Shown: positions 5,247 through 22,706 of the stretch, one piece after another
Numbering within the stretch: the stretch's first letter is position 1
Layout of the letters: every line of letters starts with the position of its first letter
NCBI RefSeq assembly: GCF_900129615.1
Contig: NZ_FQWI01000002.1
Location: forward strand, 496,001-560,000
Length of the DNA: 64,000 bases
Source: Pectobacterium carotovorum
Lineage (GTDB): Bacteria; Pseudomonadota; Gammaproteobacteria; Enterobacterales; Enterobacteriaceae
Direction of reading: 5' to 3'
Made by a program: the position numbers and the translations under genes
Notes under the pieces: model-generated
Databases searched by the model: none
Seen by the model: the letters and a program-made list of their open reading frames with translations, nothing else
What the model was told of the DNA's origin: nothing

Positions 5247-5427
5247 GATCCGATATGTTCGTATGAAACCCGACCACACTTGGGAGTCATGGGATTCAGA
5301 ACAGGTTTATGAAGATAGTGAGCGTGCAAGAGATATTGCCAATGAGGTTTCGGCAGTGATGAATCGTGATCATCCTGATACAGATCACGGCTTCAAGATA
5401 ATGGAGGTGCCGCACAATGAATCATGA
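5239..5427 (+). CDS. Small hypothetical protein of the P4-type block
   Basis: A 62-aa protein (starts MFKIRYVRMKPDHTWES). It overlaps both neighbours by 8-11 bases and keeps the GCACCATG start context typical of this gene chain. It has no recognised domain, signal or membrane segment. Confidence 0.62.
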   Translation: MFKIRYVRMKPDHTWESWDSEQVYEDSERARDIANEVSAVMNRDHPDTDHGFKIMEVPHNES

Positions 5428-6050: not shown

Positions 6051-6066
6051 ATTAAGGAAAAGCGTA

Positions 6067-6378
6067 ATGGATATAAAAATGGGAGTATTTGCCGTTGTTC
6101 GCAACTGGAAATCGAAGGGAAAACAAAACTCGATGAAGAGAATGGTTTTCTTTTTGTTATTCCTATTTCGACTTTTTACAAGAAAGACGTATATGAAACT
6201 CTGTGTTCCAGACGGAGTTAATATCATTATTGTCGATGATAAATCATCACTTAGCGATGTCATCTGTAGATGTGAACTATGGGGTGTATCGGGTGACTTT
6301 TATATATATTTAAGGAATGAGTATCACTCTGATGTGATTAAAGGTGATGTAAGGCGTATTTTTTCTAAATATGGATGA
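6067..6378 (+). CDS. Hypothetical AT-rich small protein
   Basis: A 103-aa ORF from ATG 6067 with AAGGAAAA upstream. The N-terminal third is basic with a short hydrophobic run (MVFFLLFLFRLF), the remainder soluble. Base composition is lower in GC than the flanking P4-type genes, so it may be a recent insertion or not be translated. An overlapping opposite-strand ORF looks spurious. Confidence 0.42.
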   Translation: MDIKMGVFAVVRNWKSKGKQNSMKRMVFFLLFLFRLFTRKTYMKLCVPDGVNIIIVDDKSSLSDVICRCELWGVSGDFYIYLRNEYHSDVIKGDVRRIFSKYG

Positions 6379-6581
6379 AGAGTATTAGAGTTTAGCGGGT
6401 TGATAATCTTCATTACTCCTTTTCGGTCATGATGGTATTAGGCATTTCTTTATGCGCTATTTGCGTTGGTGTCTTTGTATCTGATAGCTGAGAAGGAGTT
6501 CATTCATAATGCAACGCATGGTTAATGTGATGAGGGAAATAGCAGTCAGACAATGCTTTATCACCCTGTTAACCACAATAA

Positions 6582-6608
6582 AAAAGCGCCGTTCAGCGCG
6601 GCGCTTTT
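6582..6608 (+). terminator. Hairpin with T-run directly before the primase gene
   Basis: AAAAGCGCCG (6582-6591) pairs perfectly with CGGCGCTTTT (6599-6608) across a 7-base loop. It ends a single base before the GGAG of the primase ribosome site, so it either terminates the upstream chain or attenuates entry into the replication gene. Confidence 0.72.
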
Positions 6609-6618
6609 GGAGCTATTC

Positions 6619-9297
6619 ATGAATAACGAATTACACAAAGAAATTATAAAGCGATTGATAGCAGAATTCCAGTTTAAAGAGCAGGAAGGGTATTTACGCT
6701 ATGGTATTTGCCCCCACTGCCATAAGAAAGAACTGTTTACCAGTATCGAAAAACCTTATGTGCTGAAATGCGGACGGGAAAATAAGTGCGGGGCTGAAAT
6801 TATCGTCAATGCCCATTACGCTGATTTATTTAATCACTGGTCTGAGCGCTACCCACGCACGGAAGCGTCGCCCTGTGCGGCCGCAGATGCCTACTTACGT
6901 GAATCGCGTAATCTGGATATTACCCGTCTTGCAGGATGTTACACACAGGAAAGTTTTCATCAGAAGGGGATGGGGACAGCCACGGTGCGTTTTTCACTCC
7001 CCAGCGGGGGATATTGGGAGCGCCTTATCGATCAGCCGGAACGATTCGAGCGCAAAGCCAATTTTCATGGCGGTTATGCCGGCCAATGGTGGAGTCATTT
7101 GGCTCAGGACTTGAGTAAGCAGAAAGCGATCTGGTTGGTTGAGGGGATTTTTGATGCATTAAGCCTGATGCAAAACGGGATCGCGGCGGTGTCTATCATG
7201 TCGTGCAACAACTACCCAGAACAGGCGTTGGTGCAACTGGCACAAAGTCTGGGTGAACGCCCCAGGCCGGTGCTGGTGTGGGCGCTGGACAACGATCCGG
7301 CAGGGAAAAAATACACCATCCGTCACGCCCGCCGGAGTCAGGAGGCTGGCTGGATGGTCAATGCAGCCTGTGTGCCTGTGGGCAGACAAAAACGCGACTG
7401 GAACGATCTGCACATTCAGGGAAAGTTGACTCCACGCGATCTAAAGGAATATCGCTATCAGGGGGATTTGCTGCTGGCCGACAACGCCGCAGATAAAGCG
7501 CTACGGATTGCTGAGCATACCGAACGGCGGGAGTTTCATTTTGAATTTGATTCGCGTCTGTATTGGTTCAAGCTCGATCTGGACAGACAAATGAAAGCGG
7601 TTGAACGTATTCAGGATGGTGATATCCGGTTTAGTGAGCAGGAAGTAAAAGTGAAAGCGCTGAAAGAAGCCGGTGCCGTGGTAGAAATTGCCAACTGTTA
7701 TCCCGTTCCTCTCTATTTCCAGCGCAGTGAGCCAACGGATGAAGCCTGGTATTACTTCCAAATCAATTTCCCTGGCTCTACGCCGCCGGTGAAAGATATG
7801 TTTAAAGCAAACGATATTGCCACCGCGTCAGAGTTTAAAAAGCGTTTATTGCATGTGGGGAAAGGTGCCTTTTATACCGGCAATACGGATCAGCTTAATC
7901 GCTTTCTCCGTCAGGATTTGCCGGTGATTAAAGAGGTGCAGACACAGAATTTTATCGGCTACAACAAGGTCTGGCAGGGCTGGATATTTAATGCTCTGGC
8001 GGTTTCTGGCGGTAAGGTTTACCACCTCAACAGTGAGGATTATTTCGAGATCGGCACACTGAGTGCCAAAAGCCTCAGCCATAGCCCTGTTCTGGAAATT
8101 AACGCAGACCTCAGCCAATTTAAAACGGACTGGGTACAGGATATCTGGACGGCATTTGGCGCTAAGGGTTACATCGCGCTGGCGTTCTGGCTGGGTTCAT
8201 TGTTTGCGGAACAAATCCGGCAACAGTGCCGCAGCTTTCCGTTTCTGGAAATTGTCGGGGAGCCAGGAACAGGGAAAAGTACCTTGATCGATTTTCTCTG
8301 GAAGCTGTGTGGCCGAGATGATTACGAGGGATTTGACCCGACCAAATCCACGGCCGCAGCCAGAGCACGAAACTTTGCACAGGTTGGCAATCTGCCCGTG
8401 GTACTGATTGAGGGCGATAGAACGCAGGACACCTTACGTCAGCGGGCGTTTGATTTTGATGACCTGAAACCGCTGTATAACGGTAAAGGTATGCGGGCGA
8501 CGGGGGTTAAATCCAACAATAATGAAACCTATGAGCCGCCGTTTCGGGGAAGCATTGTGATCGCGCAGAATGCGGACGTGGGCGGTTCACCGGCATTGCT
8601 CGAACGTATCGTGCATATCCACACCGATAAGAGCGCCCAGACGCCACAAACGCGCCAGGCGGCGGAGCGGCTTGAGCGTGCAACGACAGAGCAGGTATCT
8701 GGGTTTATCCTCCATGTGACACAGTCAGAAACGGCTGTACTCGATACGTTCAATCGCATCTATGAGCAGGCTAAAACCGAGCTGGAGAACCATCCGGAGA
8801 TAAACCATAACCGTATTGCCAAAAACCATGCGCAGCTGATCGCTATGGTTGAAACTTTACCGCTGGTCTTGCCTGTTCAGGCCGATGCCGTTTTTCAAAC
8901 ACGTCAGGCTTTGGTTGCGCTGGCCGCAGAGCGTCGTCAGGCATTGCGTACCGATCCGCCACAGGTGCAGGAGTTCTGGGAGACGTTCGAGTATCTGGAT
9001 TCGCTCGATCGCTACGGACTGAACCACGCCGGAAAAGATAACAGGGAAGGGATGGTGGCGGTGAATTTCCAGCACTTTATCCAGATGGCATCTGAATATC
9101 GGGTTAACCAGTCATTTGTGATTAGCGACCTGAAAAAACAGCTTAAAGGCGGCACCAGCTTCCAGTTTACGGGCAACAAACCCGTGCGTAGTCTCCCCAA
9201 TGAGTTATACAACAAGGGCAAAGGTCAGCATGATGTGATGCGCCCTGAAGTTGTTCGCTGCTGGGTATTCAAACGTAACGAGCTGCAGCACAGTTAA
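6619..9297 (+). CDS. P4 alpha-like primase-helicase (TOPRIM plus AAA+ ATPase)
   Basis: This 892-aa protein starts at ATG 6619, placed just after the terminator hairpin and GGAG; the longer frame from 6553 would run through the hairpin. Residues about 20-60 carry a zinc ribbon (CPHCHKK, then CGRENKCG). A TOPRIM core follows (WLVEGIFDALSL and WALDNDPAGKK). A DUF927-like region leads to an ATPase with Walker A EPGTGKSTL and Walker B-like VVLIEGDR. In P4, alpha primes, unwinds and recognises the origin iterons; the matching iteron field lies directly downstream. All key motifs are intact. Confidence 0.9.
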   Translation: MNNELHKEIIKRLIAEFQFKEQEGYLRYGICPHCHKKELFTSIEKPYVLKCGRENKCGAEIIVNAHYADLFNHWSERYPRTEASPCAAADAYLRESRNLDITRLAGCYTQESFHQKGMGTATVRFSLPSGGYWERLIDQPERFERKANFHGGYAGQWWSHLAQDLSKQKAIWLVEGIFDALSLMQNGIAAVSIMSCNNYPEQALVQLAQSLGERPRPVLVWALDNDPAGKKYTIRHARRSQEAGWMVNAACVPVGRQKRDWNDLHIQGKLTPRDLKEYRYQGDLLLADNAADKALRIAEHTERREFHFEFDSRLYWFKLDLDRQMKAVERIQDGDIRFSEQEVKVKALKEAGAVVEIANCYPVPLYFQRSEPTDEAWYYFQINFPGSTPPVKDMFKANDIATASEFKKRLLHVGKGAFYTGNTDQLNRFLRQDLPVIKEVQTQNFIGYNKVWQGWIFNALAVSGGKVYHLNSEDYFEIGTLSAKSLSHSPVLEINADLSQFKTDWVQDIWTAFGAKGYIALAFWLGSLFAEQIRQQCRSFPFLEIVGEPGTGKSTLIDFLWKLCGRDDYEGFDPTKSTAAARARNFAQVGNLPVVLIEGDRTQDTLRQRAFDFDDLKPLYNGKGMRATGVKSNNNETYEPPFRGSIVIAQNADVGGSPALLERIVHIHTDKSAQTPQTRQAAERLERATTEQVSGFILHVTQSETAVLDTFNRIYEQAKTELENHPEINHNRIAKNHAQLIAMVETLPLVLPVQADAVFQTRQALVALAAERRQALRTDPPQVQEFWETFEYLDSLDRYGLNHAGKDNREGMVAVNFQHFIQMASEYRVNQSFVISDLKKQLKGGTSFQFTGNKPVRSLPNELYNKGKGQHDVMRPEVVRCWVFKRNELQHS

Positions 9298-9450
9298 ATC
9301 CAGCGATGCTGGCCAACGGATGGCCGGTATCACTGATAGCTTTACCGTCCTTCACACTCTCCCCCTAACTCACCCATGCACACCCTCATAATTGGTTGAA
9401 AAGTAGCCTTTGTGCGCCATTTTCAAAATTTTAGGGGGTACACCGGAAAA

Positions 9451-9716
9451 GCGTTACAAGTGTTACAAGGTTAAAAAATACCATTTAATATATTGAATAA
9501 TATGACTATTTAAGAATTTTAAAACCGTTACAAAAGCGTTACGGAAGCGTCACGATGTAACGGTTATGAAGTGTTACAGAATGGGTTTTTAACTCATTGA
9601 TTTTATTAGGTGTAACACTTTGCGTAACTGCTTGTAACGCCCAAAGTGTTACATGATTTTCTGTTATTTATCAGTGCATTGGGTAGGGTTTTTATGGGGT
9701 GTAACGGTTGTAACAG
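9451..9716. other. Replication origin with GTGTTACA-type iterons
   Basis: About a dozen copies of GYGTTACA or its reverse complement lie here: forward at 9451, 9460, 9525, 9536, 9571 and 9646; reverse (TGTAACRS) at 9556, 9611, 9633, 9700 and 9709; weaker variants at 9547 and 9621. The whole 9298-9957 interval is AT-rich and has no credible gene. Clustered iterons right after an alpha-type primase match the P4 replication layout, where the C-terminus of alpha binds the iterons. Confidence 0.75.
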
Positions 9717-9876
9717 TTTTCCGATGGCTGACTGAAAATAGAAAGTGACAGTGAAAAAAGAAAAGGTGAAGAGAATAGAAAATTTTCTCTGAATCATCTT
9801 TTCACTGTACTAGATTGATATATATTTTTAATAAAAACAAATGGTTAAATTCTATTTCTGATCTTTTGTATTCTAG

Positions 9877-9937
9877 GTTGACAAAATAAGGAATATGCAC
9901 CAACATTCAAGTTGACAAAACTTACTATTTGCACCAA
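9877..9937. promoter_or_regulatory. Tandem 27-bp operator-like repeats
   Basis: Two units of 27 bp at 9877-9903 and 9911-9937, 34 bp apart, share GTTGACAAAA at the left and GCACCAA at the right with a partly conserved middle. They sit immediately upstream of the two-gene unit that encodes an XRE repressor, and are good candidates for its autoregulatory operators. The TTGACA could also serve as a -35 element. Confidence 0.6.
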
Positions 9938-9957
9938 TTCCTACAGAGAGAATTTTA

Positions 9958-10557
9958 ATGTCAGAACATACTTTACCTGTGCCTAGTCAGTTTCACCCTC
10001 AATTGACGGTTGAGCGTTTATCTATCGTCGCTGAAGGTATTCTAAAAGTTTTAGATGATACATACAGGCAGTTATCAAGCTCACTTGATGATAATTACAC
10101 GAGAGGAACATGTACTTTCGGACGCCAGCGACAATATCTAATCCAGTTATGTACAAGTAAGACCCACGATTGGTTAGCGTTAACTCACGCCGGTATGGAT
10201 GTTACATTTGAGATCGAGAGTATTCCTGTTCGTTTTTTTGCTGACGATCCTGAAAATCCCAAAAAACCGGGTTTTTTCCGCCGTAATTCCGTCGATCAAC
10301 TATGGGCACCAGAAGCAACAATACCTACAATGTGGCGTTTTGTGGTTGAGAAGCCGGAGTTTGAGGGGGAAGGTGCTCGGGTGCATTTTGTTGGCTACAG
10401 CCCCCTGGGGGAAGTCCTGAGTCTTTGGACATATGGCGAAGAACGGGTTGCAATGTTGCACTCAACCGACGACACCCCGCCTGCACCGGTTGAAATTGTG
10501 TTGGATGATATCAGCGCTTCTGTTACTGAAAAAGACAAGAAGAGCGATGCAGAATAA
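9958..10557 (+). CDS. Hypothetical partner of the XRE/ImmA protein
   Basis: A 199-aa soluble protein that I do not recognise. Residues 1-45 look helical, 50-170 are mixed beta, and the last 20 are charged and probably disordered. GAGAGA precedes the ATG. It is 13 bases upstream of the XRE/ImmA gene, so the two form one operon preceded by tandem operators. The arrangement resembles toxin-antitoxin or phage-defence cargo of P4-like satellites, but no catalytic motif is visible in this protein. Confidence 0.7.
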   Translation: MSEHTLPVPSQFHPQLTVERLSIVAEGILKVLDDTYRQLSSSLDDNYTRGTCTFGRQRQYLIQLCTSKTHDWLALTHAGMDVTFEIESIPVRFFADDPENPKKPGFFRRNSVDQLWAPEATIPTMWRFVVEKPEFEGEGARVHFVGYSPLGEVLSLWTYGEERVAMLHSTDDTPPAPVEIVLDDISASVTEKDKKSDAE

Positions 10558-10570
10558 TAGTAGGTGAAAA

Positions 10571-11686
10571 GTGTTTAACGGTTCTAATTTGCGGTTAGCT
10601 CGTCTGTATCACGAGTTATCATTGGAGCAAGTGGCTGAGCGGGTCGATAAGACCCGCCAGTATATACAGCGGCTGGAATCTGGCTCTGCTGTGCCCACTC
10701 CTGAGCTTGCGAATAAATTAGCTGCCGTCTTACAGGTCATGCCTGAATTTTTCGAAGCGCAAGAGCAGTCTCCCGTGAATGAGGAAATTGTTCATTTCCG
10801 TAAACGCAGTACTACTCGTATGGCGACTAAATTAGCAACGCTTGCTAAAGCTGAGTTATATCGTCGCCTGATTGAAGTTTTTGAAGAATATCTTAATTTA
10901 CCGGCTGTTAAGTTTCCGGAAATGAAGGTACATACTCAGGAAGACATTGAAAAGGCAGCGGAGAAATGTCGAACTGATTGGGGATTAGGCTTTGGGCCGA
11001 TTGATAACATGACTCGATTGGCTGAAAAGCTAGGGGCATTTGTTACCTCTTTCGACTCTGTATCTGATGATGTGGATGCGCTTTCTGTTCCGTTAAGCCG
11101 TCCTTTCATTGTCAGAAATACTGCCAAGAAGTCGCCTTGTCGTCAGCGTTTTGATATTGCTCATGAGGTTGCGCATTTGATTTTGCACGAAGGCATCTCT
11201 ACAGGTGACAGAGTGACAGAATCACAAGCGAATCGTTTTGCGTCGGCATTACTTTTACCGCGCTCGGCTATGGCGAAGTATTTTCCTCGGCCAATTGGTG
11301 GACGTATCGACTGGCAAGGGCTTAGTCAGTTCAAACTGACGTGGAAAGTAAGTAAAGCAGCTATCATCTATCGAGCACATCAGCTTTCACTTTTGACGGA
11401 TGCCCAGTACAAAACGGCATTTTTCGGCCTAAAACGTAAAGGGGAAGCAATTGATGAGAAAGAAGATTGTCTGATACCAAATGAAAGGCCTGAGCTTTTT
11501 CATCGAGCTATGAAGTTTCTTTTAACGGATTTGATGGTTGATGCTGATGCGTTAGCACATCGTTTGAAGATCACGCCAGCTATGTTGGCAGAACTGGCGA
11601 ACGATAACTTACTAACAGACACTTCTATTGGAAAAGTATCAGGAAATGTAGTTTCTATGTCTTCTTACCGAATGAAGATAGTTTGA
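10571..11686 (+). CDS. XRE-family regulator fused to ImmA/IrrE metallopeptidase
   Basis: A 371-aa protein starting at GTG 10571. Residues about 5-60 are an XRE helix-turn-helix (LSLEQVAERVDKTRQYIQRL). Residues about 170-260 are an M78/ImmA zinc peptidase with HExxH in FDIAHEVAHLILHEG and the third-ligand helix ESQANRFASALLLP. ImmA peptidases usually cleave a repressor; fused forms are common in mobile-element switches, toxin-antitoxin modules and some defence loci. It is cotranscribed with the 199-aa gene and ended by a strong terminator, so the pair is a self-contained cargo module. Confidence 0.85.
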   Translation: MFNGSNLRLARLYHELSLEQVAERVDKTRQYIQRLESGSAVPTPELANKLAAVLQVMPEFFEAQEQSPVNEEIVHFRKRSTTRMATKLATLAKAELYRRLIEVFEEYLNLPAVKFPEMKVHTQEDIEKAAEKCRTDWGLGFGPIDNMTRLAEKLGAFVTSFDSVSDDVDALSVPLSRPFIVRNTAKKSPCRQRFDIAHEVAHLILHEGISTGDRVTESQANRFASALLLPRSAMAKYFPRPIGGRIDWQGLSQFKLTWKVSKAAIIYRAHQLSLLTDAQYKTAFFGLKRKGEAIDEKEDCLIPNERPELFHRAMKFLLTDLMVDADALAHRLKITPAMLAELANDNLLTDTSIGKVSGNVVSMSSYRMKIV

Positions 11687-11699
11687 TATTGTTCTACCT

Positions 11700-11730
11700 G
11701 AATCCCGTGTCCACGGGATTCATTTTTTCT
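11700..11730 (+). terminator. Rho-independent terminator of the XRE/ImmA operon
   Basis: GAATCCCGTG (11700-11709) and CACGGGATTC (11712-11721) form a near-perfect hairpin followed by ATTTTTTCT. Confidence 0.85.
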
Positions 11731-11863
11731 CGTCAAAATCACCGCATAAAGTTGCACAAAAATGCATAATTTTTTTGATGCTATCTACCCCTTTTCGCAC
11801 CAGTTCTGGCGCGGGTTTGCCCTTGCTGCACAACTGCACAAAAACGCGCTATTTTAATGCGCG

Positions 11864-11892
11864 GGCGTGGAGGGGGGACAATTGCGCGCTGA
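11864..11892 (+). other. P2/P4-type cos packaging site
   Basis: The sequence GGCGTGGAGGGGGGACAAT (11864-11882) followed by TGCGCGCTGA (11883-11892) aligns with the 19-base cohesive end of P2, GGCGAGGCGGGGAAAGCAC, and its conserved flank TGCGCGCTGA as I recall it: 13 of 19 plus all 10 flank positions. Position fits P4, where cos separates the replication and late regions. The rest of 11731-12221 has no credible gene. It holds two TGCACAAAAA motifs (about 11753 and 11836) and GC-rich DNA left of cos. Confidence 0.75.
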
Positions 11893-12221
11893 GGGATCTG
11901 GGTGATACCGATGTTTATTTGCTGTAAGAAAGACCATGCTTATCTAACGCAGTATGAGACATGCCCTGTGATATCCATCAAAATGGAACGCTTAAAATCG
12001 TTTCTAGGGGCTTACATGAAAGCGGTAGCCAATCGCTAATCCTTGTTATATAGGCATGATATTTATTTTTTATTTGTGAATTATTTTGATTGAAAACCAC
12101 GGTGAGACTGATCAGTGCTCACTTAATGATAAGCGCAGCATAGAAAATGTTTGGCAGAGTCAGGTGCGGTGTAAGCGGTCTTTTGCCTGGAAAAAATCGT
12201 ATTACACCGGATGGGAAAAGA

Positions 12222-12455
12222 TTACTTCAGGAACGGGAAGCGCTCATCAAAATTCATGTGGTAAACGGACTCAGCCGTAGCTGTGCCGGTGTTATCAGAC
12301 TCTGGCGTTTGAGCCAGATAGGTTGTTACTGCATCCAGTATCAGCGCAGTGTAGCCACGCTTTGACCGTTTACACTGTCGCTCAATTTCTGCGTCGATCT
12401 GGTGAGGTACACGCAATGTCCTTATCCGTGTTTTACCGTTACTGCTGCCTTTCAT
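12222..12455 (-). CDS. Small RHH-type repressor
   Basis: A 77-aa protein starting at the internal ATG 12455 (GGGGATCAAGAC upstream), since the longer frame lacks a ribosome site and crosses operator repeats. The core IRTLRVPHQIDAEIERQCKR followed by GYTALILDAVTTYL is typical of ribbon-helix-helix proteins. It is divergent from the coiled-coil gene at 12618, with three copies of one palindrome between the two, and probably represses both. Confidence 0.72.
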   Translation of the reverse strand: MKGSSNGKTRIRTLRVPHQIDAEIERQCKRSKRGYTALILDAVTTYLAQTPESDNTGTATAESVYHMNFDERFPFLK

Positions 12456-12473
12456 GTCTTGATCCCCAGCGTT

Positions 12474-12598
12474 GTGTAATACACCCAATTCTTCATCTGG
12501 TTGCAGGCCAGCAAAAGTATACTTCGGTGTAATACGCCGGCGACAAACATAATCGCGGGATTTCCCAAGCTCAGATGGTGAATATAGGTGTATTACAC
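12474..12598. promoter_or_regulatory. Three GTGTAATACAC palindromes (RHH operators)
   Basis: GTGTAATACAC at 12474-12484, GTGTAATACGC at 12527-12537 and GTGTATTACAC at 12588-12598. They fill the divergent promoter region, the first just upstream of the leftward repressor start and the last just upstream of the rightward ribosome site. Confidence 0.68.
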
Positions 12599-12617
12599 TA
12601 CTGAGAAGGACGTAAAA

Positions 12618-13430
12618 ATGACTACCCCTATTCATGACGCTGTTTCAGATAAAAGCCCTGCACGGCAACGGCTGGATGAGATTGCTAATATGTTTTCTGC
12701 ACTGGAGGCCGATATTGAGCAGGAACGGCGAACCCTGGCCAATCTTGTGGAAAGTCATCGTCAGGCAGAAGCAGAGCTAAAAGAGAATGATGGAAAATGG
12801 GAAAGTATTCTCATGGAAAATAACGGCGTAGAGAATACTGAGTCAGAGCGGGCTTTGTTTCTTACTACTACCGCTAAGGCTAAAATAGCCCGTTTATCTG
12901 TCTTGATGAAAGATCAAAAACGAAAGGTAACCGAAATGAATATTCGGCTGGGCGGCATGACCGTTGAATATAACAATGCATTTTCCAATGTCACTGCCCC
13001 CATCGTTAAGCGTGAGGTTGAACAACTTATCACCGAGCTGCATGATTTAATGGCACCGCGGATTAGCCGAGTCGTTGGACTGTGTAGAATGTATGGTGTC
13101 AGTGTTCGTGAAACACTGGCAGCGGTTTATTTCACTACTACATACAGAAACGAAAAGGGGGAACTAATTGATGTGGGGCGTTTTGAAAAAATTATGTCAA
13201 CGGATGATGTCGAGTCATCAATAATCAATTCTGTTAAAACTATCATTCGCAGTGACAGTATTAAGCTAACCGATAGTGAGTTACCGGATGATCATCCCGG
13301 CGCGTATCCACGAAATGTTTTCAGAGCGATGAAAAATACCCCTTCTCCGGCACAATTATCGCGTGCCAAGTCTGATGCGGAATACAAAGAAAAACTGTTC
13401 ACTGGGGAAATCCCATTTAGTAATTTGTGA
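12618..13430 (+). CDS. Coiled-coil protein, possibly Psu-like
   Basis: A 270-aa protein from ATG 12618 (AAGGACG upstream). Residues about 15-120 are strongly helical and heptad-like, and residues 120-270 form a second domain ending SRAKSDAEYKEKLFTGEIPFSNL. Its place, between cos and the Delta-like genes, is where P4 carries psu and sid. P4 Psu (190 aa) decorates capsids and inhibits Rho and has a comparable coiled-coil-first layout, but I cannot see clear sequence identity, so the assignment is tentative. Confidence 0.5.
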   Translation: MTTPIHDAVSDKSPARQRLDEIANMFSALEADIEQERRTLANLVESHRQAEAELKENDGKWESILMENNGVENTESERALFLTTTAKAKIARLSVLMKDQKRKVTEMNIRLGGMTVEYNNAFSNVTAPIVKREVEQLITELHDLMAPRISRVVGLCRMYGVSVRETLAAVYFTTTYRNEKGELIDVGRFEKIMSTDDVESSIINSVKTIIRSDSIKLTDSELPDDHPGAYPRNVFRAMKNTPSPAQLSRAKSDAEYKEKLFTGEIPFSNL

Positions 13431-13437
13431 GGCCAGC

Positions 13438-13644
13438 ATGAAAAAGATGAAATTAACATTCAAAGGCAAGGATATGTACGCCTCTCAGGAAGAGATTATC
13501 TCCTTGATGTCAGCCTGCGAAAAAGCACTGTCTGGAAATCATGAGGGGAGACGTGAGCAGTATCTGAACCAACAAGATACTACTCAACATTTTAATCGCC
13601 ATTTACCCGATGAGGGACGTCAGAGTTATTTGGCTGACTGTTAG
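13438..13644 (+). CDS. Small hypothetical protein after the coiled-coil gene
   Basis: A 68-aa protein starting 7 bases after the preceding stop, with GAGG upstream. It is basic at the N-terminus and helical. Its last 53 bases overlap the end of the convergent zinc-finger gene. Function unknown. Confidence 0.55.
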   Translation: MKKMKLTFKGKDMYASQEEIISLMSACEKALSGNHEGRREQYLNQQDTTQHFNRHLPDEGRQSYLADC

Positions 13645-13843
13645 GAAAGATACTGTCACAGGTAGCGCTACGGTGTGCTACCTGTTCGTTGTCTGATGTG
13701 CTTACTCTCAGTTCTTCAATTGTGGTGAAGCAATGGCCGCATAGCAAGTTTTTGCACTGATGGTAGCGGCGATAACTGTTTTCTCCAATTTTTTCCACCC
13801 CTCTGTCTCCTGCGACTTTACCGCAGTATTTACAAGTGATCAT
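13592..13843 (-). CDS. Ogr/Delta-like zinc-finger activator, second half
   Basis: An 83-aa protein with the Ogr/Delta pattern C-x2-C (CKYC, residues 4-7) and C-x4-C (CKNLLC, about 30-35), plus the RRYHQC stretch seen in the family. Ogr/Delta proteins activate late promoters of P2-type phages and of P4. It begins inside the last 14 bases of the upstream zinc-finger gene in another frame, so translation is coupled. Its C-terminal tail beyond about residue 50 covers a hairpin and may not be conserved. Confidence 0.75.
   Translation of the reverse strand: MITCKYCGKVAGDRGVEKIGENSYRRYHQCKNLLCGHCFTTIEELRVSTSDNEQVAHRSATCDSIFPNSQPNNSDVPHRVNGD
13658..13685. terminator. Hairpin between convergent late genes
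   Basis: ACAGGTAGC (13658-13666) pairs perfectly with GCTACCTGT (13677-13685). It lies between the convergent operons and could terminate in either direction, although T-runs are weak and it sits inside the tail of the zinc-finger ORF. Confidence 0.5.
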
Positions 13844-14081
13844 AGCGACCTTGCCTCATCTCTATACAGCGCGTTTTTATTGTTGCGGGGATGCTGGCGT
13901 TTTCTTCAGCCTGGTTAAGGGCAACCTCATACCATTGTAATGATGTGCATTTAAATCCGCATTCTTGACCGGTACAAACGCGGTAGATGCTGCGCACATT
14001 GGCATCTAAAGCAAGGCTTGTACGTGCCCGCATCCATGCCCCACATTTAGGGCATTCTGGGAGTTTTTTACGTGGTTCCAT
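13830..14081 (-). CDS. Ogr/Delta-like zinc-finger activator, first half
   Basis: An 83-aa protein with C-x2-C (CPKC) and C-x4-C (CTGQEC) separated by about 24 residues. ATG 14081 is used; a GTG at 14093 would add four residues. P4 Delta is a single chain of two Ogr domains in tandem. Here the two domains are separate genes overlapping by 14 bases, in the same order. The pair probably trans-activates helper and satellite late promoters. Confidence 0.75.
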   Translation of the reverse strand: MEPRKKLPECPKCGAWMRARTSLALDANVRSIYRVCTGQECGFKCTSLQWYEVALNQAEENASIPATIKTRCIEMRQGRYDHL

Positions 14082-14134
14082 AGTGTGTCCCACTAAAAAT
14101 ATTGCTTATGCGTACATTATAACGGGAATACGAT

Positions 14135-14155
14135 TGGGGGTACATCTGGGGGTAT
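14135..14155 (+). repeat. Right-end copy of the integrase arm sites
   Basis: TGGGGGTAC (14135-14143) and TGGGGGTAT (14147-14155) repeat the pair at 1899-1919 with the same 12-bp spacing, differing at one of 21 positions. This marks the right end of the P4-like element. Confidence 0.75.
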
Positions 14156-14212
14156 GAAAAACTTAGAATAAAATATTATCTATATAAATCATATCTTATT
14201 TTAATGAGTTAT

Positions 14213-14228
14213 ATTCCCTTCACGCTCA
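14213..14228 (+). repeat. Degenerate attachment core between the two elements
   Basis: ATTCCCTTCAC (14213-14223) is an exact 11-base match to the tRNA-derived core, and GCTCA follows where the intact core has TCGCTCCA. It lies 58 bases right of the arm sites, where the P4-like attR / second-element attL should be. The damage suggests this internal junction can no longer recombine well. Confidence 0.55.
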
Positions 14229-14341
14229 TGACCTTCTTAAAAACCTCTAACTTACTGAATCCTAAGGGACACGGCTTAACGCCTCCTTACAGAGTTACTT
14301 ACTGTAACCTACTGTGTAACCCTGCTCAGGGCATACAGACC

Positions 14342-15967
14342 ATGATTCAGCTATCAAATTCAGCCAATGTTCTCTCTATTACCACTTATCTATACCAGCG
14401 CGGTGGCGTTTACTATTTCCGTATGAAAACAAAAAGAAGTAAAGATGTCTGGACGTCTAAAATAGATGGGAATAAGATAACTTCAGTTTCATTACGAACC
14501 AAGGACAGGCGTACCGCTATGGCTCACTCTCGACACATTAGGGCAGCACTTAAAGCAATCCATGCGGATAAGCCTAACGCTTCCTATGAGGAGATGAGGG
14601 AGCATCTAAGGGATATTGCTGAGTGGGAATTGTCGTTGGGGCGTTCAGATCTCTTTGAGCCAGACATGAGGGATATCTATCGTGACCAGTACGGGGAAGT
14701 AGGCGAGGGCCTTATTGATGCTTTAGCAAGTGAACCGTTGAGTATTAACCAACACCGATACATCAATGAAGCGCTGAAGGTACTAAAGGCTTGCATGAAA
14801 CGTATAGAAGTAGGAGACAGCCAACCTCTCATAGATTATATCGATGAATTTGATGTTATTGATCGGTCAAATAATCAGGCGTCTGTATCCCTACCTGTTA
14901 ATGTGCCAGAAGTGACTACCGTCAGTCTTGCTGCTCTCTTTGGGCAATACGAAGAGGAGAATGCTCAGAATTGGAAGCCAGCAACCTTAAGAGAAAACAC
15001 ATCGGCCCACGCTACGTTAATCGAAATCTTCAACTATATGGGCCTGAACGAGGACGCTAACGCGATAACTCGCGCTGATATGCTAAAGGTTCGTGATGTC
15101 CTCCAGCGATTACCAAAGCACCGTAAGCAGCGTTACAAGAATACACCATTGGCAGACCTATTGAATCGTGAGGATAAGGCTGATTGTCTGGGTGTGGTAA
15201 CAATTAACAATAGATACCTGATTAAGCTGTCAGCCGTCTTTAAATGGGCTGTAAGAAATGACTTATTAGTCAAGAATCTAGCTGAAGGGTTGGAACTCAA
15301 AGTGCCCCAGCGTAGAGCCTCTGAGGCGCGTAATGCCTTTAGTCCTGAGCAAGTGAGGCAAATATTGGTCGCCGCTAAAGCGTATTCACAGAAGAACTCA
15401 GGTAAGCCATATCATTATTATGTCACCGCTTTGGCTGCAATCACTGGAGCAAGGCTGAATGAGGTGGCGCAACTACAGGTTAAAGACGTTAAGACCACGG
15501 GAACGGAAACTGTTTATATCCATATCAATGAAGATGATAGCAGCTTATCCGGTAAGAGCATTAAGAATACCCATAGTGAACGCTACGTGCCGCTTGTTGA
15601 TGGTGCGTATGGTTTTGTATTGGCTGACTTCATGACACTTGTAGAGGCCCGTAGAAGCGCTGGCGGCGATGATGCGCTGGTGTTTGATGGCCTACACCTT
15701 ATGAAGAACGGTTACGGCGAACAAGTTAGCAAGTGGTTTAATCGGACGTTGTTGCCTAAGGTTCTGACTGACCGTGATGGATTGGCATTCCACTCGTTTA
15801 GGCACACAGTAGCCACGCAGCTGAAACAGCATGGTGTGGAATTGGCTTACGCTCAGGCGATTATGGGGCACAGCTCGGGGTCGATTACCTATGACCGTTA
15901 TGCTAAAGAAGTTGAAGTGGATAAACTGTTTGGTGTTCTGTCTGGTGTCTACTTACCTCAGCAATGA
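14342..15967 (+). CDS. int: Tyrosine integrase of the second element
   Basis: A 541-aa protein when started at ATG 14342; the frame opens at 14204 but that extension crosses the attachment core and looks non-coding. Residues about 15-60 are a small beta N-terminal domain (YLYQRGGVYYFRMKTKRSK), then a long helical linker and a SAM-like domain. The catalytic domain has Arg in TGARLNEVAQL, His-x-x-Arg in HSFRHTVATQL, and GHSSGSITYDRY with the nucleophilic Tyr. It is a different subfamily from the P4-type integrase at 1983, so the two elements are independent integrations. Confidence 0.9.
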   Translation: MIQLSNSANVLSITTYLYQRGGVYYFRMKTKRSKDVWTSKIDGNKITSVSLRTKDRRTAMAHSRHIRAALKAIHADKPNASYEEMREHLRDIAEWELSLGRSDLFEPDMRDIYRDQYGEVGEGLIDALASEPLSINQHRYINEALKVLKACMKRIEVGDSQPLIDYIDEFDVIDRSNNQASVSLPVNVPEVTTVSLAALFGQYEEENAQNWKPATLRENTSAHATLIEIFNYMGLNEDANAITRADMLKVRDVLQRLPKHRKQRYKNTPLADLLNREDKADCLGVVTINNRYLIKLSAVFKWAVRNDLLVKNLAEGLELKVPQRRASEARNAFSPEQVRQILVAAKAYSQKNSGKPYHYYVTALAAITGARLNEVAQLQVKDVKTTGTETVYIHINEDDSSLSGKSIKNTHSERYVPLVDGAYGFVLADFMTLVEARRSAGGDDALVFDGLHLMKNGYGEQVSKWFNRTLLPKVLTDRDGLAFHSFRHTVATQLKQHGVELAYAQAIMGHSSGSITYDRYAKEVEVDKLFGVLSGVYLPQQ

Positions 15968-16104
15968 AAATATCTAGCCAATACAGGATGATGACCTCTT
16001 CTCTGATCGATTCATATGGTGGTTATTTATGCATTAATAGTGAATGGATAAGCGGTTTGCTCAAGGGTGGAAGCTGCTAAAAACTCTATATATATCAAAG
16101 GTTT

Positions 16105-16133
16105 TATTAACGACTCACTATAAGAAGAAGACC
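16105..16133 (+). promoter_or_regulatory. T7-type phage RNA polymerase promoter 1
   Basis: TATTAACGACTCACTATA is followed by AGAAGAAGACC. The 13 bases ACGACTCACTATA are identical to positions -13 to -1 of the T7 class III consensus, and the +1 region is purine-rich as in T7. Chance occurrence of a 13-base match next to two further relatives is very unlikely. Confidence 0.85.
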
Positions 16134-16343
16134 CCTTAAGACTTACCTTAAGTTATCATTCAGTATTCATATGCAGTGTTTATGCATGGTTACTGACTGT
16201 GTACTTAAGGAATATTTCTTAAGAGCTCATTCAGCTCTAACCATAATTGTTATGGTGATATCACTCCATCAATACTTATTAGCATTCTGTCTCTGACAGG
16301 TCAGACTGATAGCCCTTGATAGCACCTAATAATTCCCTCCCAG

Positions 16344-16373
16344 CATTAACGACTCACCACAGAGAGAGATACC
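16344..16373 (+). promoter_or_regulatory. T7-type phage RNA polymerase promoter 2
   Basis: CATTAACGACTCACCACA followed by GAGAGAGATACC. It keeps ATTAACGACTCAC and the purine initiation region but differs at the TATA part, so it may be weaker. Confidence 0.72.
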
Positions 16374-16684
16374 TACAGACGACCAATGGGGGAAAGGGGG
16401 GGAATCTTAAAGATAAACCTAGAGTCTAAATAAAAGATAGTAATAAGACAAATAATAAGATAATAGCTCAAGGTCCAAAGGGATAACTTAAAGAGGTTAT
16501 AAAATTAAATCATAATTATCGAAAATCAACCTAGAGGGAAATAACCTATAGCTGAACTTTAATTAATCAGGGTCATCTGCCTGCACCGTCACAAATATAC
16601 CTCATCGCTTTTCCTCAATTACCATCTCCGTATCGACCTCAGGCTATCATCCGGTCTTACGGAAGGTTGCCTCGCTGGCTTCAG

Positions 16685-16712
16685 TATTAACGACTCACTA
16701 CTAGAAGAGACC
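16685..16712 (+). promoter_or_regulatory. T7-type phage RNA polymerase promoter 3
   Basis: TATTAACGACTCACTACT followed by AGAAGAGACC. The first 16 bases are identical to promoter 1. It points towards the KilA-N and capsid-like genes. Confidence 0.8.
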
Positions 16713-16739
16713 AATGTTCCGATCACACCGAGCGTATCC

Positions 16740-16770
16740 CGTTTGGAAGCTCTGCAAGAAACGCATAGGT
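16740..16770 (+). pseudogene. Relic fragment of a KilA-N gene
   Basis: These 31 bases match 17178-17208 inside the intact KilA-N gene at 27 positions, and all four differences are transitions. The surrounding frame is broken. It appears to be the remnant of a second copy just downstream of promoter 3. Confidence 0.5.
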
Positions 16771-17018
16771 CAAGGCGTTAAGTCCTCGCTGATGAATCAC
16801 CACCGATATTATATTCAATCGTCGAGTTAAAATTTCAACATCGTGAACGGTACGTCATCAAGAAATACAAGGCTCTCCCTGCCTTCCTTCTTTATTTAAA
16901 ATCACAAAGTCATTCTGTCTGCATCCTGTCGCCTGCTGGTCTCCCTTTTATGTGGGGACTTTGTGTAGGCCAGCGGGATGGGACTTCAGGATGCATACAA
17001 AATGGAGAACATATAAGC

Positions 17019-17576
17019 ATGAATAAATTAAACAAACACGCAAGCCATATCATTATTATTGAAGATCACAGTTTTAAAGCTAATGACTCCGGTATGTGGA
17101 ATCTGACGGAAATATGGAAAGTTCTCGAATTAACCCGTGCTAAGGCTCCCTCCCAGTGGCGAACTAAAAGCGCTGTGCGTCTGGAGGCTCTGCAAAAAAT
17201 GCATAGGTACAACGGTGAATATATCTACGCAGATAAACAAGCAACCTTAAAGTACGCCGGATGGGTCTCAGCAGATTTTGAAGATATGGTCTATGCAGCC
17301 TTTGAAGCCATCTTGGAGATGCCAGAGATTGCCGAAGTGGTAGCCAATAAAATGATTGAATTGGGCTATCAGAAAGAGGCCGAGCTATTGGAACGCCATA
17401 AGGACGACTACAGAGAAGCCATGCGGAATTTGAATAAGATTGGTAAACGTGTTGATGGCAGGAAGCCTGAGCGTATCTACAAAGCTGTTCTTAATGGCAA
17501 TATGACGAAATCCCAAGGTCTCTCCCTGATCCCTCGTACCAGTGTCTGGTACACCAGAATAATGGTGAATATATAA
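17019..17576 (+). CDS. KilA-N domain protein
   Basis: A 185-aa protein from ATG 17019 with GGAG upstream. Residues about 5-100 show the KilA-N fold (MWNLTEIWKVLELTRAKAPS, then YADKQATLKYAGWVSADF), and the C-terminus is charged and helical. KilA-N proteins are DNA-binding factors of phages and mobile elements, sometimes toxic to the host. The gene sits 307 bases downstream of T7-type promoter 3 and would be transcribed from it. Confidence 0.75.
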   Translation: MNKLNKHASHIIIIEDHSFKANDSGMWNLTEIWKVLELTRAKAPSQWRTKSAVRLEALQKMHRYNGEYIYADKQATLKYAGWVSADFEDMVYAAFEAILEMPEIAEVVANKMIELGYQKEAELLERHKDDYREAMRNLNKIGKRVDGRKPERIYKAVLNGNMTKSQGLSLIPRTSVWYTRIMVNI

Positions 17577-17804: not shown

Positions 17805-18095
17805 ATGTTGAAAGGCATGGGGTCATTCATTGGGATGGCAGTGCTGCTTTTAGGTGTGGGCGTTATGGCAGGTTATATCTACGGTTGGACAACGTGGGAA
17901 ACGTATCGTGCAGTAGCTAGAGGTATGCGCGCTTTCTGGTGGGCTTCGGGAAGTCTATTCGTCGCAGGGATAATCTACCGTATTACATTCAACAGATTGT
18001 CAGGTGTATGCGGAATCCTTTTTAGCTTAGCAATAGCCGTCGCCTTAATACTTACTGGTTTTCATTATGCTATTGGTGGTGGTTGGTGGCGGTAA
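17805..18095 (+). CDS. Small membrane protein of the second element
   Basis: A 96-aa protein with three hydrophobic segments (about residues 5-27, 45-60 and 66-88) and AGGA upstream of the ATG. Not recognised. In a phage satellite such proteins may be holins or superinfection-exclusion factors, but nothing here decides. The 228-bp gap before it holds no gene. Confidence 0.6.
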   Translation: MLKGMGSFIGMAVLLLGVGVMAGYIYGWTTWETYRAVARGMRAFWWASGSLFVAGIIYRITFNRLSGVCGILFSLAIAVALILTGFHYAIGGGWWR

Positions 18096-18219: not shown

Positions 18220-18277
18220 GAACTGACCGATGCGGGGAGACCGTAGGCGTAAATGCGTCTGCGTGACCGATAAGTTC
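18220..18277 (+). promoter_or_regulatory. Structured leader before the two-gene capsid-like unit
   Basis: GAACT (18220-18224) can close against AGTTC (18273-18277), and TGACCGAT occurs twice (18224 and 18264). The leader then leads to AAGAAGGAG and the ATG. In T7, leaders of late genes are RNase III-processed hairpins, and the spacing to AAGAAGGAG is reminiscent of the gene 10 leader. The pairing is weak. Confidence 0.35.
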
Positions 18278-18308: not shown

Positions 18309-18743
18309 ATGTCATCAATCAATGAAAACCTGCCAGTACTCAACATCACCAAACAGAAGCTGACTCTCAGTAAAGATGAGGCGACCGTGCTGTGGTGTGG
18401 CGTCGAGTACCCTGTAGTCAATTTCGTGAACGTCGTAGTCCCTAACCTGCTGGCATATTTCCAGCCAAACAGCCATGGGTCACATCATCTGCTGTCGGAG
18501 ATGTCGGTTAACGGCTTCAGCATTCGAGGCTATGGCAAGCACGCTACCGCTTGGGCTGAGACCATCCGAAACAACCGAGAGGCACACGAACAGCGCCTTA
18601 AGGAAGTCCGCGAGCACCAAGAACGTATGGCAGCCATGAACGCCACTCCTGCTGAGATTGCAGCGGAGAGAGCTGAGAAAGCACGCATTCAAGATGAATA
18701 CGCTCGCCGCTATGGTCGCAAAGGCGCTGACTTCGGACTGTAA
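18309..18743 (+). CDS. Unknown protein, candidate scaffold/decoration protein
   Basis: A 144-aa protein with a strong ribosome site (AAGAAGGAG). Residues 1-85 are mixed alpha/beta, and residues about 88-140 form a highly charged helix ending ARRYGRKGADF. No homologue recognised. It stands directly upstream of the capsid-like gene, the place of the scaffold gene 9 before capsid gene 10 in T7, and a charged C-terminal helix is usual in scaffolds. That role is inference. Confidence 0.6.
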   Translation: MSSINENLPVLNITKQKLTLSKDEATVLWCGVEYPVVNFVNVVVPNLLAYFQPNSHGSHHLLSEMSVNGFSIRGYGKHATAWAETIRNNREAHEQRLKEVREHQERMAAMNATPAEIAAERAEKARIQDEYARRYGRKGADFGL

Positions 18744-20531: not shown

Positions 20532-20555
20532 TTCGATTCCCTTCACTCGCTCCAA
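20532..20555 (+). repeat. Right attachment core (attR) of the tandem array
   Basis: Exact 24-base copy of the tRNA-Gly 3' end at 1762-1785. No other part of the tRNA is present. Confidence 0.92.
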
Positions 20556-21353
20556 TCATACTTCTCTCAACGTCTATCCAAGTCCAATAAATCCAGTCAC
20601 CACAAGGCTTAGCGCTAGTTTTCAGTCGTTTAGGGAAAACCCGCGTCTATCTAAATCTACAGCCTAGTGCGTATAGTTATGTGTATAGGGCATCATGACA
20701 TTCGAAATCCCATACACATTCGCTCTCAACACAGCTAGGAAACTATACACATGCCTCTTTCATCAACCATAGTGAAGTGTGTAAATATCATGATTTAGTT
20801 AATTTTTATTAATTTAATAATGATTTATATATGTTTCCATGAAACAATATAAATTGCTTAAATACAAGGCTTTCATAGATGTGAAGATTATATATTTAAT
20901 AAAAAGGCATTCACCATCACTGGATGGTTTTTATTATCTTACCTTATTGTTATATAGAATAAATTACTAATAACTTTATTGGTAATAACCGTCTGAGTAA
21001 AATATTTCTCTCCATTATCAGGTTCATTATCAATAATAACGATAGAGAATAACGAATTTGTTTTAATGAAAAATTAAGCATGGCGTAAGCAGGCTGATAA
21101 AAAATTCAACGAGGGTTAGGAAGAATAGGCGTCTGTTGTAATATATTAATGTAAAGGTTATCCTTTAGATGATGCATTTTATTATATGTTATTATGGCCA
21201 TGAAAGTGCTCAGGCTATCTCATGGAAATAAAACGTTTATACATAAATAATGGTTTTGTGTGTTTTAAAATTTCATCTGAGAGAGTATTATATCCATGCA
21301 ACAGAGACTACGGCTTCGAACCGTAGAATGGAGTTTTTTTGTATGGAGGCATA
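20556..21353. other. AT-rich non-coding region, possible relic of a third element end
   Basis: No credible gene. Right after the attachment core, blocks such as AAGTCCA and CCAGT recur at the same distance as they do after the left core (about 1811-1825). Three copies of a TGTGTATAGG-like site follow: forward at 20680, reverse at 20709-20720 and 20744-20753. This looks like the left arm of another tRNA-Gly element that has lost its integrase. The rest is AT-rich leader DNA before hcp; CTACGG/CCGTAG at 21309-21327 forms a small hairpin in the hcp leader. Confidence 0.45.
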
Positions 21354-21833
21354 ATGTCCAATCTTATTTATCTTAGCGTTACCGGGGAAAAGCAGGGGCT
21401 GATATCAGCAGGATGTTCATCTCTAGACTCTATTGGCAATAAGTATCAATCGGCACATGAGAATGAAATTTTTGTTTATGAGTTGGTGAACAACATTAGT
21501 CGGGAAGAGAATATTTCAATGCTTCCTGTCGAGATCAGAAAGCCAATTGATAAAGCCACGCCATTGTTCGCTCAGGCAATCAATGATAAGGAAAAGCTGG
21601 AATGCACTCTTTCTTTCTACCGAACGGCGCAGTCTGGTGGAAATGAACTTTACTTTAAGATGAAGCTTCGGGATGCACTTATCAGCAATATACGCTTTTT
21701 CTATCCTAATTCACTGACACATAATGACGTTCAGCCACAGGAAAGCGTATCATTCAAGTTTGCGTCTATTGAATGGGAGCATGTTATTGCAAGAACAAGT
21801 GCTTACATGCTTTGGCAGAATGTAGCCTACTAA
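21354..21833 (+). CDS. hcp: Hcp-family type VI secretion tube protein (orphan)
   Basis: A 159-aa Hcp protein starting at ATG 21354 after GGAGGCATA. The N-terminal SNLIYLSVTGEKQGLISAGC and the following DSIGNKYQ are hallmarks of the enterobacterial Hcp/TssD family. Hcp hexamers form the T6SS tube and carry small effectors. No other T6SS gene is in the window, so this is an orphan hcp of the kind that marks effector islands. A strong terminator follows at once. Confidence 0.9.
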   Translation: MSNLIYLSVTGEKQGLISAGCSSLDSIGNKYQSAHENEIFVYELVNNISREENISMLPVEIRKPIDKATPLFAQAINDKEKLECTLSFYRTAQSGGNELYFKMKLRDALISNIRFFYPNSLTHNDVQPQESVSFKFASIEWEHVIARTSAYMLWQNVAY

Positions 21834-21873: not shown

Positions 21874-22053
21874 TGAGCCATATTTGATATTTATGAATAT
21901 GATGATTGCAATTGAAAATAGCATCAATTTCATCCAATGTTCTGGGATGAATGAAACGTATAAGAACCATAAGGCAACTATCAAAATTACTGAGACTTCG
22001 GTTACTATAAAGTTCTTTATGAAATATTTAATTATTTTCTTCATACTCATCAT
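21853..22053 (-). CDS. Small two-segment membrane protein
   Basis: A 66-aa protein with two hydrophobic helices (about residues 13-33 and 42-56) and a lysine-rich tail. Its start overlaps the stop of the 218-aa gene by 4 bases, so the two are translationally coupled. Placed beside an orphan hcp it could be an immunity protein for the 218-aa product, but this rests on context alone. Confidence 0.55.
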   Translation of the reverse strand: MMSMKKIIKYFIKNFIVTEVSVILIVALWFLYVSFIPEHWMKLMLFSIAIIIFINIKYGSKKSGRK

Positions 22054-22706
22054 TCTATCATCCCATTAATCATTCTTGTTATGTCTTCTTCACTTATTGA
22101 GTCCATAGGTAAATAAGCTGGCAGAACTGGTTCGATTAAAAAATATAGCATTTCTAAATTTTGTGAATAAAATAAACCATAAAGTGCGGGGTTAATATCC
22201 CGTAAGTGGCGGGCTGACATTGCCGCTTTCTGAACCTTGCCATAAAATGCTGTTATTGTTATAGCAACATAAGTTGTTTGATTTATTGTTTTACGTAAAG
22301 ATGCTTTAAAATTGAGAGATGTGCTGATGAATTTAGCTAACACATACGATATTGACTCTCTTATTGCCCTGTTTGTTGCGAATTCTGATGTTACACCTAA
22401 AATTGCTTTCGCTATAGTTCTTTGCTTATTTTCATCAAAATCTCTCATTAAAAAATCAATGTAAATTTTTACCATGTCAAGAATAACATCATCTCTTTTA
22501 AAAACTTCTTTTATTGCATCAACCATTCTGGAATCTTCATATTGTAATTCCTGACAGACGTCGTTATAACTTTCAATAAGGCAGGATGTATACCAACTGG
22601 CTCTCTCCATGCCATTAGATAAATCAGTTGTCAGACTTATTGTATTACTTTTTACTTTTTTTGTTATTTTATCTAAATGGGCGGCGAGAAATTTGTCAGA
22701 CTCCAT
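22050..22706 (-). CDS. Unknown 218-aa protein next to hcp
   Basis: Largely alpha-helical, with a mildly hydrophobic stretch around residues 140-165 (YVAITITAFYGKVQ) and no signal peptide. Not recognised. It is convergent with hcp and coupled to the small membrane gene. A T6SS effector or pore-forming toxin is possible; the weak amphipathic/hydrophobic character would suit that, but there is no motif. Confidence 0.6.
   Translation of the reverse strand: MESDKFLAAHLDKITKKVKSNTISLTTDLSNGMERASWYTSCLIESYNDVCQELQYEDSRMVDAIKEVFKRDDVILDMVKIYIDFLMRDFDENKQRTIAKAILGVTSEFATNRAIRESISYVLAKFISTSLNFKASLRKTINQTTYVAITITAFYGKVQKAAMSARHLRDINPALYGLFYSQNLEMLYFLIEPVLPAYLPMDSISEEDITRMINGMIE

Follow-up and report, generated by a model that had tools for sequence, protein, structure and literature searches.

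A small integrative element of Pectobacterium carotovorum, lying at about 14.2-20.55 kb of the window (the whole 64,000-nucleotide stretch analysed here) and holding five main genes in about 6.3 kb, is likely to be an integrated satellite of T7-like (Autographiviridae) phages that would be activated directly by the RNA polymerase of the invader. This view draws, at the level of sequence, on the identity, direction, conservation and host matching of the promoters behind its integrase gene, on the phage DNA that surrounds one of them, on attachment sites, on the absence of a phage polymerase from the genome, and on the match of relatives to the defence gene PD-T7-4. The element apparently belongs to an undescribed family sited at tRNA-Gly(CCC) in enterobacteria, and the coordinates of its features are collected in table 1.

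Promoter sites and their phage counterparts

The sequence ATTAACGACTCAC occurs at the predicted positions as three exact copies (16106-16118, 16345-16357, and 16686-16698), all on the + strand and within 600 bp, and a search of the whole genome (4,759,459 bases) for the exact motif returned these 3 copies only, the reversed pattern giving 0 forward matches and 1 reverse match as a control. With up to 2 mismatches allowed, the window holds 4 matches where 1.24 are expected, a number reached by 5 of 100 shuffles and hence not unusual; because this count is unremarkable, the weight of the argument rests on the exact copies, on their clustering, and on the comparison with phages. All three sites lie between the integrase and regulator genes, point into the element and are followed by a purine-rich start, and the first has 13 bases, ACGACTCACTATA, in common with the T7 promoter. 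In each of these respects, the original prediction held, as did its statement that no gene for a single-subunit polymerase is present: a search of the whole genome with PF00940 gave no match, when Q19 and T7, used as positive controls, were recovered at E 1.2e-99 and 9.9e-110.

The designation of the sites as T7-type promoters stands in part, since they are real phage promoters, yet not strictly those of T7: they are Q19/Jarilo-type and DU_PP_II-type variants of Pectobacterium phages. Indeed, the comparison with promoters of T7-like Pectobacterium phages, proposed together with the prediction, matched site 1 to Q19 and site 3 to DU_PP_II over 23 bases. For site 1, the identity is with the annotated Q19 promoter at 39384, which is phiOR judging by its position, and the best matches of this site among 50,697 phage records are Pectobacterium phages (10 of the 29 matching records at E up to 10). 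Q19, of the genus Pektosvirus, holds ATTAACGACTCAC in 8 exact forward copies, and T7 and K11 hold 0. For site 3, the 23 bases from 16688 are the same as in the right-end promoter region of DU_PP_II, of the genus Unyawovirus. Site 2 scores lower than the two others and matches, at 80% over 46 nt, the promoter region of an IMG/VR contig sized like Yersinia phage AP10. Judging by these matches, a single element bears at least two promoter types, from phages of two genera that infect one host genus.

Overlooked by the original prediction were the membership of the element in a family and the extent of its phage DNA, about 290 bp around site 1 being shared with phages. In DU_PP_II, the counterpart of 15987-16276 comprises the last 39 nt of the terminase large-subunit CDS (37481-39253), a promoter in the position of phiOR, which is a replication origin in T7, and intergenic DNA, the next CDS running from 39538. 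When 15960-17020 was compared with the same 50,697 phage records (E up to 0.01), 10 records matched, all of them from phages infecting Pectobacterium; they stand for 8 phages, DU_PP_II and Jarilo being present twice each, and match the full stretch at 80.7-81.8% in 6 cases and 44-89 bp of it in the 4 others. The sequences called DUPPII, Jarilo, and AP10 in one of our searches are IMG/VR contigs sized like those phages, and the DU_PP_II result was repeated on the named record.

Table 1. Features of the promoter-bearing element, in coordinates of the window
Feature	Position	Strand	Basis
Probable left attachment site, degenerate copy of the tRNA-Gly 3' end	14214..14235	+	ATTCCCTTCACGCTCA; exact boundary presumed
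Tyrosine integrase, 541 aa	14342..15967	+	PF00589 E 8.1e-19; phrog_1 E 2.3e-46
Stretch like the right end of Pectobacterium T7-like phages	15987..16276 (290 bp)	+	81.1% identity to DU_PP_II 39215-39502
T7-class promoter 1, Q19/Jarilo type	16106..16128	+	ATTAACGACTCACTATAAGAAGA; 23/23 identical to Q19 promoter; 36.0 bits
T7-class promoter 2, apparently degenerate	16345..16367	+	ACTCACCACAGAGAGAGA; 20.8 bits, pooled matrix
AT-rich stretch, possible origin region	16407..16527	+	peak A+T window 0.76 at +440 from integrase end; function presumed
T7-class promoter 3, DU_PP_II type	16686..16708	+	TAACGACTCACTACTAGAAGAGA (16688-16710) identical in DU_PP_II; 37.4 bits
Conserved RNA hairpin just 5' of the regulator gene	16917..16998	+	8-sequence alignment
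KilA-N/Rha-like regulator, 185 aa	17019..17576	+	phrog_129 transcriptional regulator E 1.5e-6 (longer frame 16950-17576)
96-aa protein, membrane-like by eye	17805..18095	+	open frame
DUF6971 protein, 5' of the shell-protein gene	18309..18743	+	PF22318 E 9.2e-6, 26.1 bits (cut-off 27, just missed)
Probable HK97-fold shell protein, 384 aa	18849..20003	+	homology to L071 (28%) and others
Terminator-like hairpin after the shell gene, resembling phage Tphi	20013..20045	+	folded, beside T7, T3, K11, and EcoDS1 terminators; by eye
Right attachment site, exact 22-bp copy of the tRNA-Gly 3' end	20533..20554	+	attachment-site search

Boundaries and genes of the element

An intact tRNA-Gly(CCC) gene stands at 1711-1784 of the window, and the left attachment copy near 14214 is degenerate because a second integrative element intervenes between this tRNA gene and the promoter-bearing element. 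This second element (1785-14213) encodes an integrase (1983-3197) of its own, a 914-aa phrog_1139 primase (6553-9297), and a protein with HTH and IrrE-like peptidase parts (10571-11686). In a genome of the same genus (L084; relatives are designated by our locus numbers), DNA like the right flank in the window follows directly after the tRNA (82% over 204 bp, with a further match at 90%). Just past the right attachment site, the window encodes an Hcp-family type VI secretion protein (21339-21833) and a phrog_26461 protein (22050-22706). In L083, another locus of the genus, the same tRNA-Gly is occupied by a different element, about 6.2 kb long, whose integrase match is distant and on the reverse strand.

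The start of the integrase was picked from the length of its relatives, the longest frame beginning at 14204. The hairpin 5' of the regulator gene is kept in 8 aligned members, 2 of its 25 predicted pairs being changed on both sides, which is little covariation, and it found no match in Rfam up to E 1. The regulator itself shares 73% identity with the product of the KilA-N gene of an E. coli element (L010), and homologs of the 96-aa protein are found at 68-70% in L014, L058, and L065 and at 95% in L054. The DUF6971 protein is 37-38% identical to E. coli DUF6971 proteins, and 5eur matches the DUF6971 family profile; our guess is that this protein may be a scaffold. A second leader, similar between the window (about 18222-18275) and L071 (about 1050-1115), is present 5' of the DUF6971 gene (ACCGATGCGGGGAGACC...TGCGTCTGCG...ACCGATA) and is possibly an RNA hairpin.

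About half of the elements of the family carry the shell protein family, which probably has the HK97 fold, the copy in the window included. This prediction is made with moderate confidence: the fold was modelled for one member, L071, and its model (pLDDT 62) resembles HK97-type shells, including the T7 capsid; the model of the window protein itself, at a pLDDT of 32, gave no usable fold. Sequence searches of the PDB with the shell family yielded nothing useful, and two shell proteins had no match among the 50,697 phage records; a profile comparison with T7 gp10 gave no result, Pfam and PHROGs scans returned weak matches only (4 of 12 members hit the PHROG "head decoration", with E 0.019 at best), and single-sequence scans of genomes and viral contigs with the window protein, and of viral contigs with the L005 protein, returned nothing useful. 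Used alone, shell profile A1 detected 2 genomes among 394 of the order, and 113 of 5,426 E. coli genomes matched DNA of the DUF6971-shell region. No terminase, portal, or tail family was detected when the five main genes in the window element were scanned against Pfam and PHROGs. A hairpin resembling Tphi follows the shell gene, by eye, in the window, L054, L004, and L006.

Additional blocks of repeated or conserved DNA are visible near the promoters of relatives. A conserved block of about 100 bp (...CTTATCGCATCC...GGTCAGTCGATAAGTGAATAG...), which may be a structured RNA or a protein-binding site, lies 3' of the first promoters in L005, L006, L009, L010, L014, and L019, and short tandem repeats flank the promoter regions of L014 (8722-8890, CCATAGGCGATGA units) and L005 (9430-9620, TAGGGTCTCTCTC units).

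Relatives at tRNA-Gly(CCC) and their promoters

The search of databases for the same arrangement of promoters and integrase, suggested with the original prediction, uncovered a family of such elements in enterobacteria, and the integrase of the window is 77-80% identical to five integrases from E. coli and Klebsiella elements. With the window's own genome counted and E limited to 1e-60, searches for the integrase family recovered 3 genomes out of 25 for the genus, 15 out of 392 for the bacterial family (G493 being partial and distant, and G296 stopping at the integrase), and 4 out of 394 for the order (two of them distant, and G296 once more). At the DNA level, 385 of the 5,426 complete E. coli genomes match the integrase, and in 353 of them a single place covers at least 80% of the query. 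A tRNA-Gly(CCC) gene lies just 5' in 12 of the 14 close-integrase loci L054-L067, and this tRNA gene, instead of fis, is the neighbor of the integration site. Among 24 elements with the tRNA end pattern, the 22-bp repeats are exact in 10, have 2-4 mismatches in 8, and are missing in 6, including L056 and L061, which are cut short by the end of their contig; nine elements besides the window's have exact 22-bp tRNA-end repeats at both ends and measure 4.3-6.4 kb.

For a census of promoters, position weight matrices were derived from the annotated promoters of T7 (17), K11 (13), T3 (14), EcoDS1 (11; genus Kayfunavirus, the source of our label "K1F type"), and Q19 (12 of 13, the promoter at 567 being excluded), together with 11 motif-picked DU_PP_II sites, and 2.2 kb 3' of the integrase were scanned in 30 regions at a self-chosen threshold of 13 bits. 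At least one forward T7-class site is present in each of the 27 close-integrase elements scored, among them that of the window. In total, the census counts 78 forward matches, about five of which are AT-rich and probably false, and 2 reverse matches, against 2.85 in shuffles summed over the 30 regions. No site was found in the three distant-integrase regions L068-L070, and none over 13 bits in L083; L085, a locus without the element, has two reverse matches of 13.9 and 14.0 bits, which indicate the false-positive level of the threshold. Since L008, L009, L010, and L014 were fetched through a T7 promoter match, they are not independent; among the members located by shell-region or integrase similarity of DNA or protein, the window aside, forward sites are present in 22 of 22. 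Near-duplicates (L007, L011, L013), engineered-looking records (L012, L015), records missing the integrase stretch (L016, L017, L071), and G296/L035, whose contig stops at the integrase, were not counted. As for kinship within the census, L004, L006, and L019 are mutually close, and L078-L080 are 3 records chosen among 60 of the 385 matching ones.

The exact T7 consensus is found in L004, L005 (twice), L006, L008, L010, L014 (twice), and L019, the K11 sequence AATTAGGGCACACTATAGGGAGA in L004, L006, and L019, K1F-type sites in L055, L059-L061, L063, L064, L078, and L079, and T3-like sites in L018, L065, and L066; exact T7 and K11 promoters are borne by E. coli and Klebsiella relatives. Two IMG/VR contigs, of 39.9 and 38.5 kb, show 8 and 5 listed matches to the promoter type of L066, and that of L057 matched weakly in 20 phage records, at a single place in each. 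The sites are frequently paired, with a spacing of 26-31 bp (mostly 27-28), and commonly stand near +640-720 and +1170-1280, promoters of different types occupying similar positions in different relatives. The E. coli elements L004 and L006 share 97.5-98% identity in the two proteins that were compared, and the K11 type and the AATTAGGTAG type are swapped between them, as expected if specificity, beyond sequence alone, were under selection; the swapped segments are L004 9462-10050 and L006 9467-10044, with a K11-type promoter against a AATTAGGTAGCACTATAGGGAGA promoter. One T7 promoter noted in the T3 record is not used by T3 polymerase, which illustrates why more than one lock would be required. 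Finally, a T7 promoter match exists in 209 of 5,426 E. coli genomes, some of them outside the family; 8 records were fetched among the listed matches (60 of 209), and 6 of these are elements of the family.

The cargo of relatives can also vary. In L058, a member with two AACGACTC-type promoters, genes of 215 and 342 aa (3447-5119, minus strand) stand in place of the DUF6971 and shell genes, as an alternative cargo, and in L009 (1-6478, E. coli strain 5735), a tandem element with an annotated phage capsid protein and an HNH endonuclease stands 5' of the T7-promoter element.

Proposed life cycle, alternatives, and known systems

If the element is an integrated satellite, it would likely lie dormant until a T7-like phage infects; the single-subunit RNA polymerase of that phage would then recognize its cognate promoters behind the integrase, and transcription would run through the genes for the regulator, DUF6971 protein, and probable HK97-fold shell protein as far as the Tphi-like terminator. 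The phiOR-like segment, along with AT-rich repeats in some relatives, would probably allow the phage replication machinery to copy the excised element, and the shell protein would probably reshape or replace the head of the phage to allow packaging of the 4-6 kb element, which phage or hybrid particles would then spread. Induction, replication, packaging, and spread are the steps that we infer in this scheme. The role of PD-T7-4 and other accessory genes of relatives may be host protection or the tuning of the helper, and mixed promoters (T7, T3, K11, K1F, and other types) may widen the range of triggering phages. More broadly, we lean towards the view that these elements are a widespread satellite family of lytic T7-like phages that has gone undescribed. 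Infection would be sensed by an exchangeable array of cognate promoters, each of them the lock to a single polymerase lineage (T7, T3, K11, K1F, Pektosvirus, Unyawovirus, and others); these locks stand for the most part at two sites downstream of the integrase, where close pairs are frequent. The array would be shuffled between strains as it tracks local phages, and the family would build its own small HK97-fold shell.

The original prediction had offered two options, a satellite or a defence island keyed to T7-like phages. The keying is strongly supported by host-matched promoters and by their presence in 27 of 27 elements, and of the two options, the satellite is favored because the family has a probable virus-shell gene, the window's copy included. 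A dedicated defence island, in which the phage polymerase would turn on genes against T7-like phages and the element would not travel in phage particles, is possible though on the unlikely side. It accords with PD-T7-4, a gene that comes from a selection for anti-T7 defence (PMC9519451) and is matched right behind the integrase in many relatives (E 8.3e-99 in L006), and with some members (L010 and L014) that gave no shell-gene match. Against packaging, two shell proteins have no match in phage records, a result still compatible with packaging, no phage terminal repeat was recognized, and the exact junction motif ATCTGTT is absent from the gaps read, looser matches (16574 in the window, 9835 in L014) differing from it, even if DU_PP_II itself is without the motif too. 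Against the defence island, the DUF6971 and shell module, the phiOR-like region, and the attachment repeats are satellite-like, the element in the window has no PD-T7-4 match, and PD-T7-4, being located 5' of the promoters, is not driven directly by them.

That the sites serve mainly as replication origins, made of a promoter and AT-rich DNA as in T7, rather than as expression switches is unlikely, and its odds overlap with those of an integrated satellite because both roles are compatible. Site 1 does lie within the phiOR-like region, and AT-rich DNA with TTAAAG repeats follows the promoters in many T7-type members, among them L014 and L005, the AT-rich region of the latter being weakly like the T7 1.1 origin region (66% over 107 columns, E 6e-4). 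Such DNA is not universal, however, since K1F- and T3-type relatives retain promoter pairs without it, and the genes downstream run in the same direction up to a terminator-like hairpin after the shell gene.

A decayed T7-like prophage, the alternative that the original prediction had itself raised, is very improbable in spite of the roughly 290 bp of T7-like right-end DNA: PF00940 is absent from the genome, only 39 nt of a terminase gene end are present, the scans of the five main genes found no other Autographiviridae gene, the integrase, regulator, and shell genes are open frames that recur in small elements of many genera, and promoter types vary between relatives at similar positions. The chance that the sites reflect fortuitous similarity or vector contamination is negligible, the former being ruled out by the exact count over the whole genome and by the census, and the latter, for the family, by conservation across its members, strand bias, and host-matched variants unlike vector promoters, even though 2 of the 8 E. 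coli records fetched (L012 and L015, the only ones to look engineered) have their T7 promoters in engineered-looking inserts.

T7 is among the best-studied lytic phages. No integrated satellite of T7 was found in the literature searched, and none of the papers listed by searches of the open literature, outside which most subscription papers and bioRxiv lie, deals with T7-class promoters in such elements; a description may be published elsewhere. PD-T7-4 often overlaps an integrase gene (Vassallo 2022; PMC9519451), and the main text of that paper contains "T7 promoter" and "T7 RNA polymerase" 0 times each. Hochhauser et al. proposed that integrase-only defence islands may be uncharacterized satellites (PMC10121019), and the present family, if our interpretation is true, would be a concrete candidate for these islands and would explain the home of PD-T7-4. 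It would also mean that bacterial chromosomes, including those of E. coli, hold natural T7-class promoters, and that the hallmark polymerase of a phage triggers a parasite or a defence, as an unusually direct sensor of infection. All this would have a bearing on therapeutic and biotechnological uses of T7-like phages and of T7 promoters.

Among known systems, the T7-like right end of Pektosvirus Q19 and Unyawovirus DU_PP_II is homologous to promoter 1 and its surroundings, which in the window stand behind an integrase and without the phage genes. Capsid-forming PICIs, and SaPIs with their size-redirecting proteins, answer temperate helper phages through repressors and have other gene sets, whereas the tRNA-Gly family has one shell gene plus DUF6971 and promoters for a phage polymerase. 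The head and packaging gene cluster of a capsid-forming PICI is likewise not matched by the window element, which has the DUF6971 and shell genes only and no terminase or portal family. The genes and the trigger of PLE, the satellite of Vibrio phage ICP1, differ from those of the tRNA-Gly family, and we know of no T7-class promoters in PLE. The likeness to the family as interpreted here is that PLE is the satellite of a lytic phage, excising, replicating, and protecting the population (PMC7145576). The nearest satellites of virulent phages in the literature searched are PICMIs, which resemble the tRNA-Gly family in being very small and integrative, and the one studied carries a defence gene (PMC10803314). 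PICMIs as described there (PMC10803314) lie next to fis, in Vibrionaceae, and encode no capsid remodelling, whereas the tRNA-Gly family has T7-class promoters and a probable shell protein of its own.
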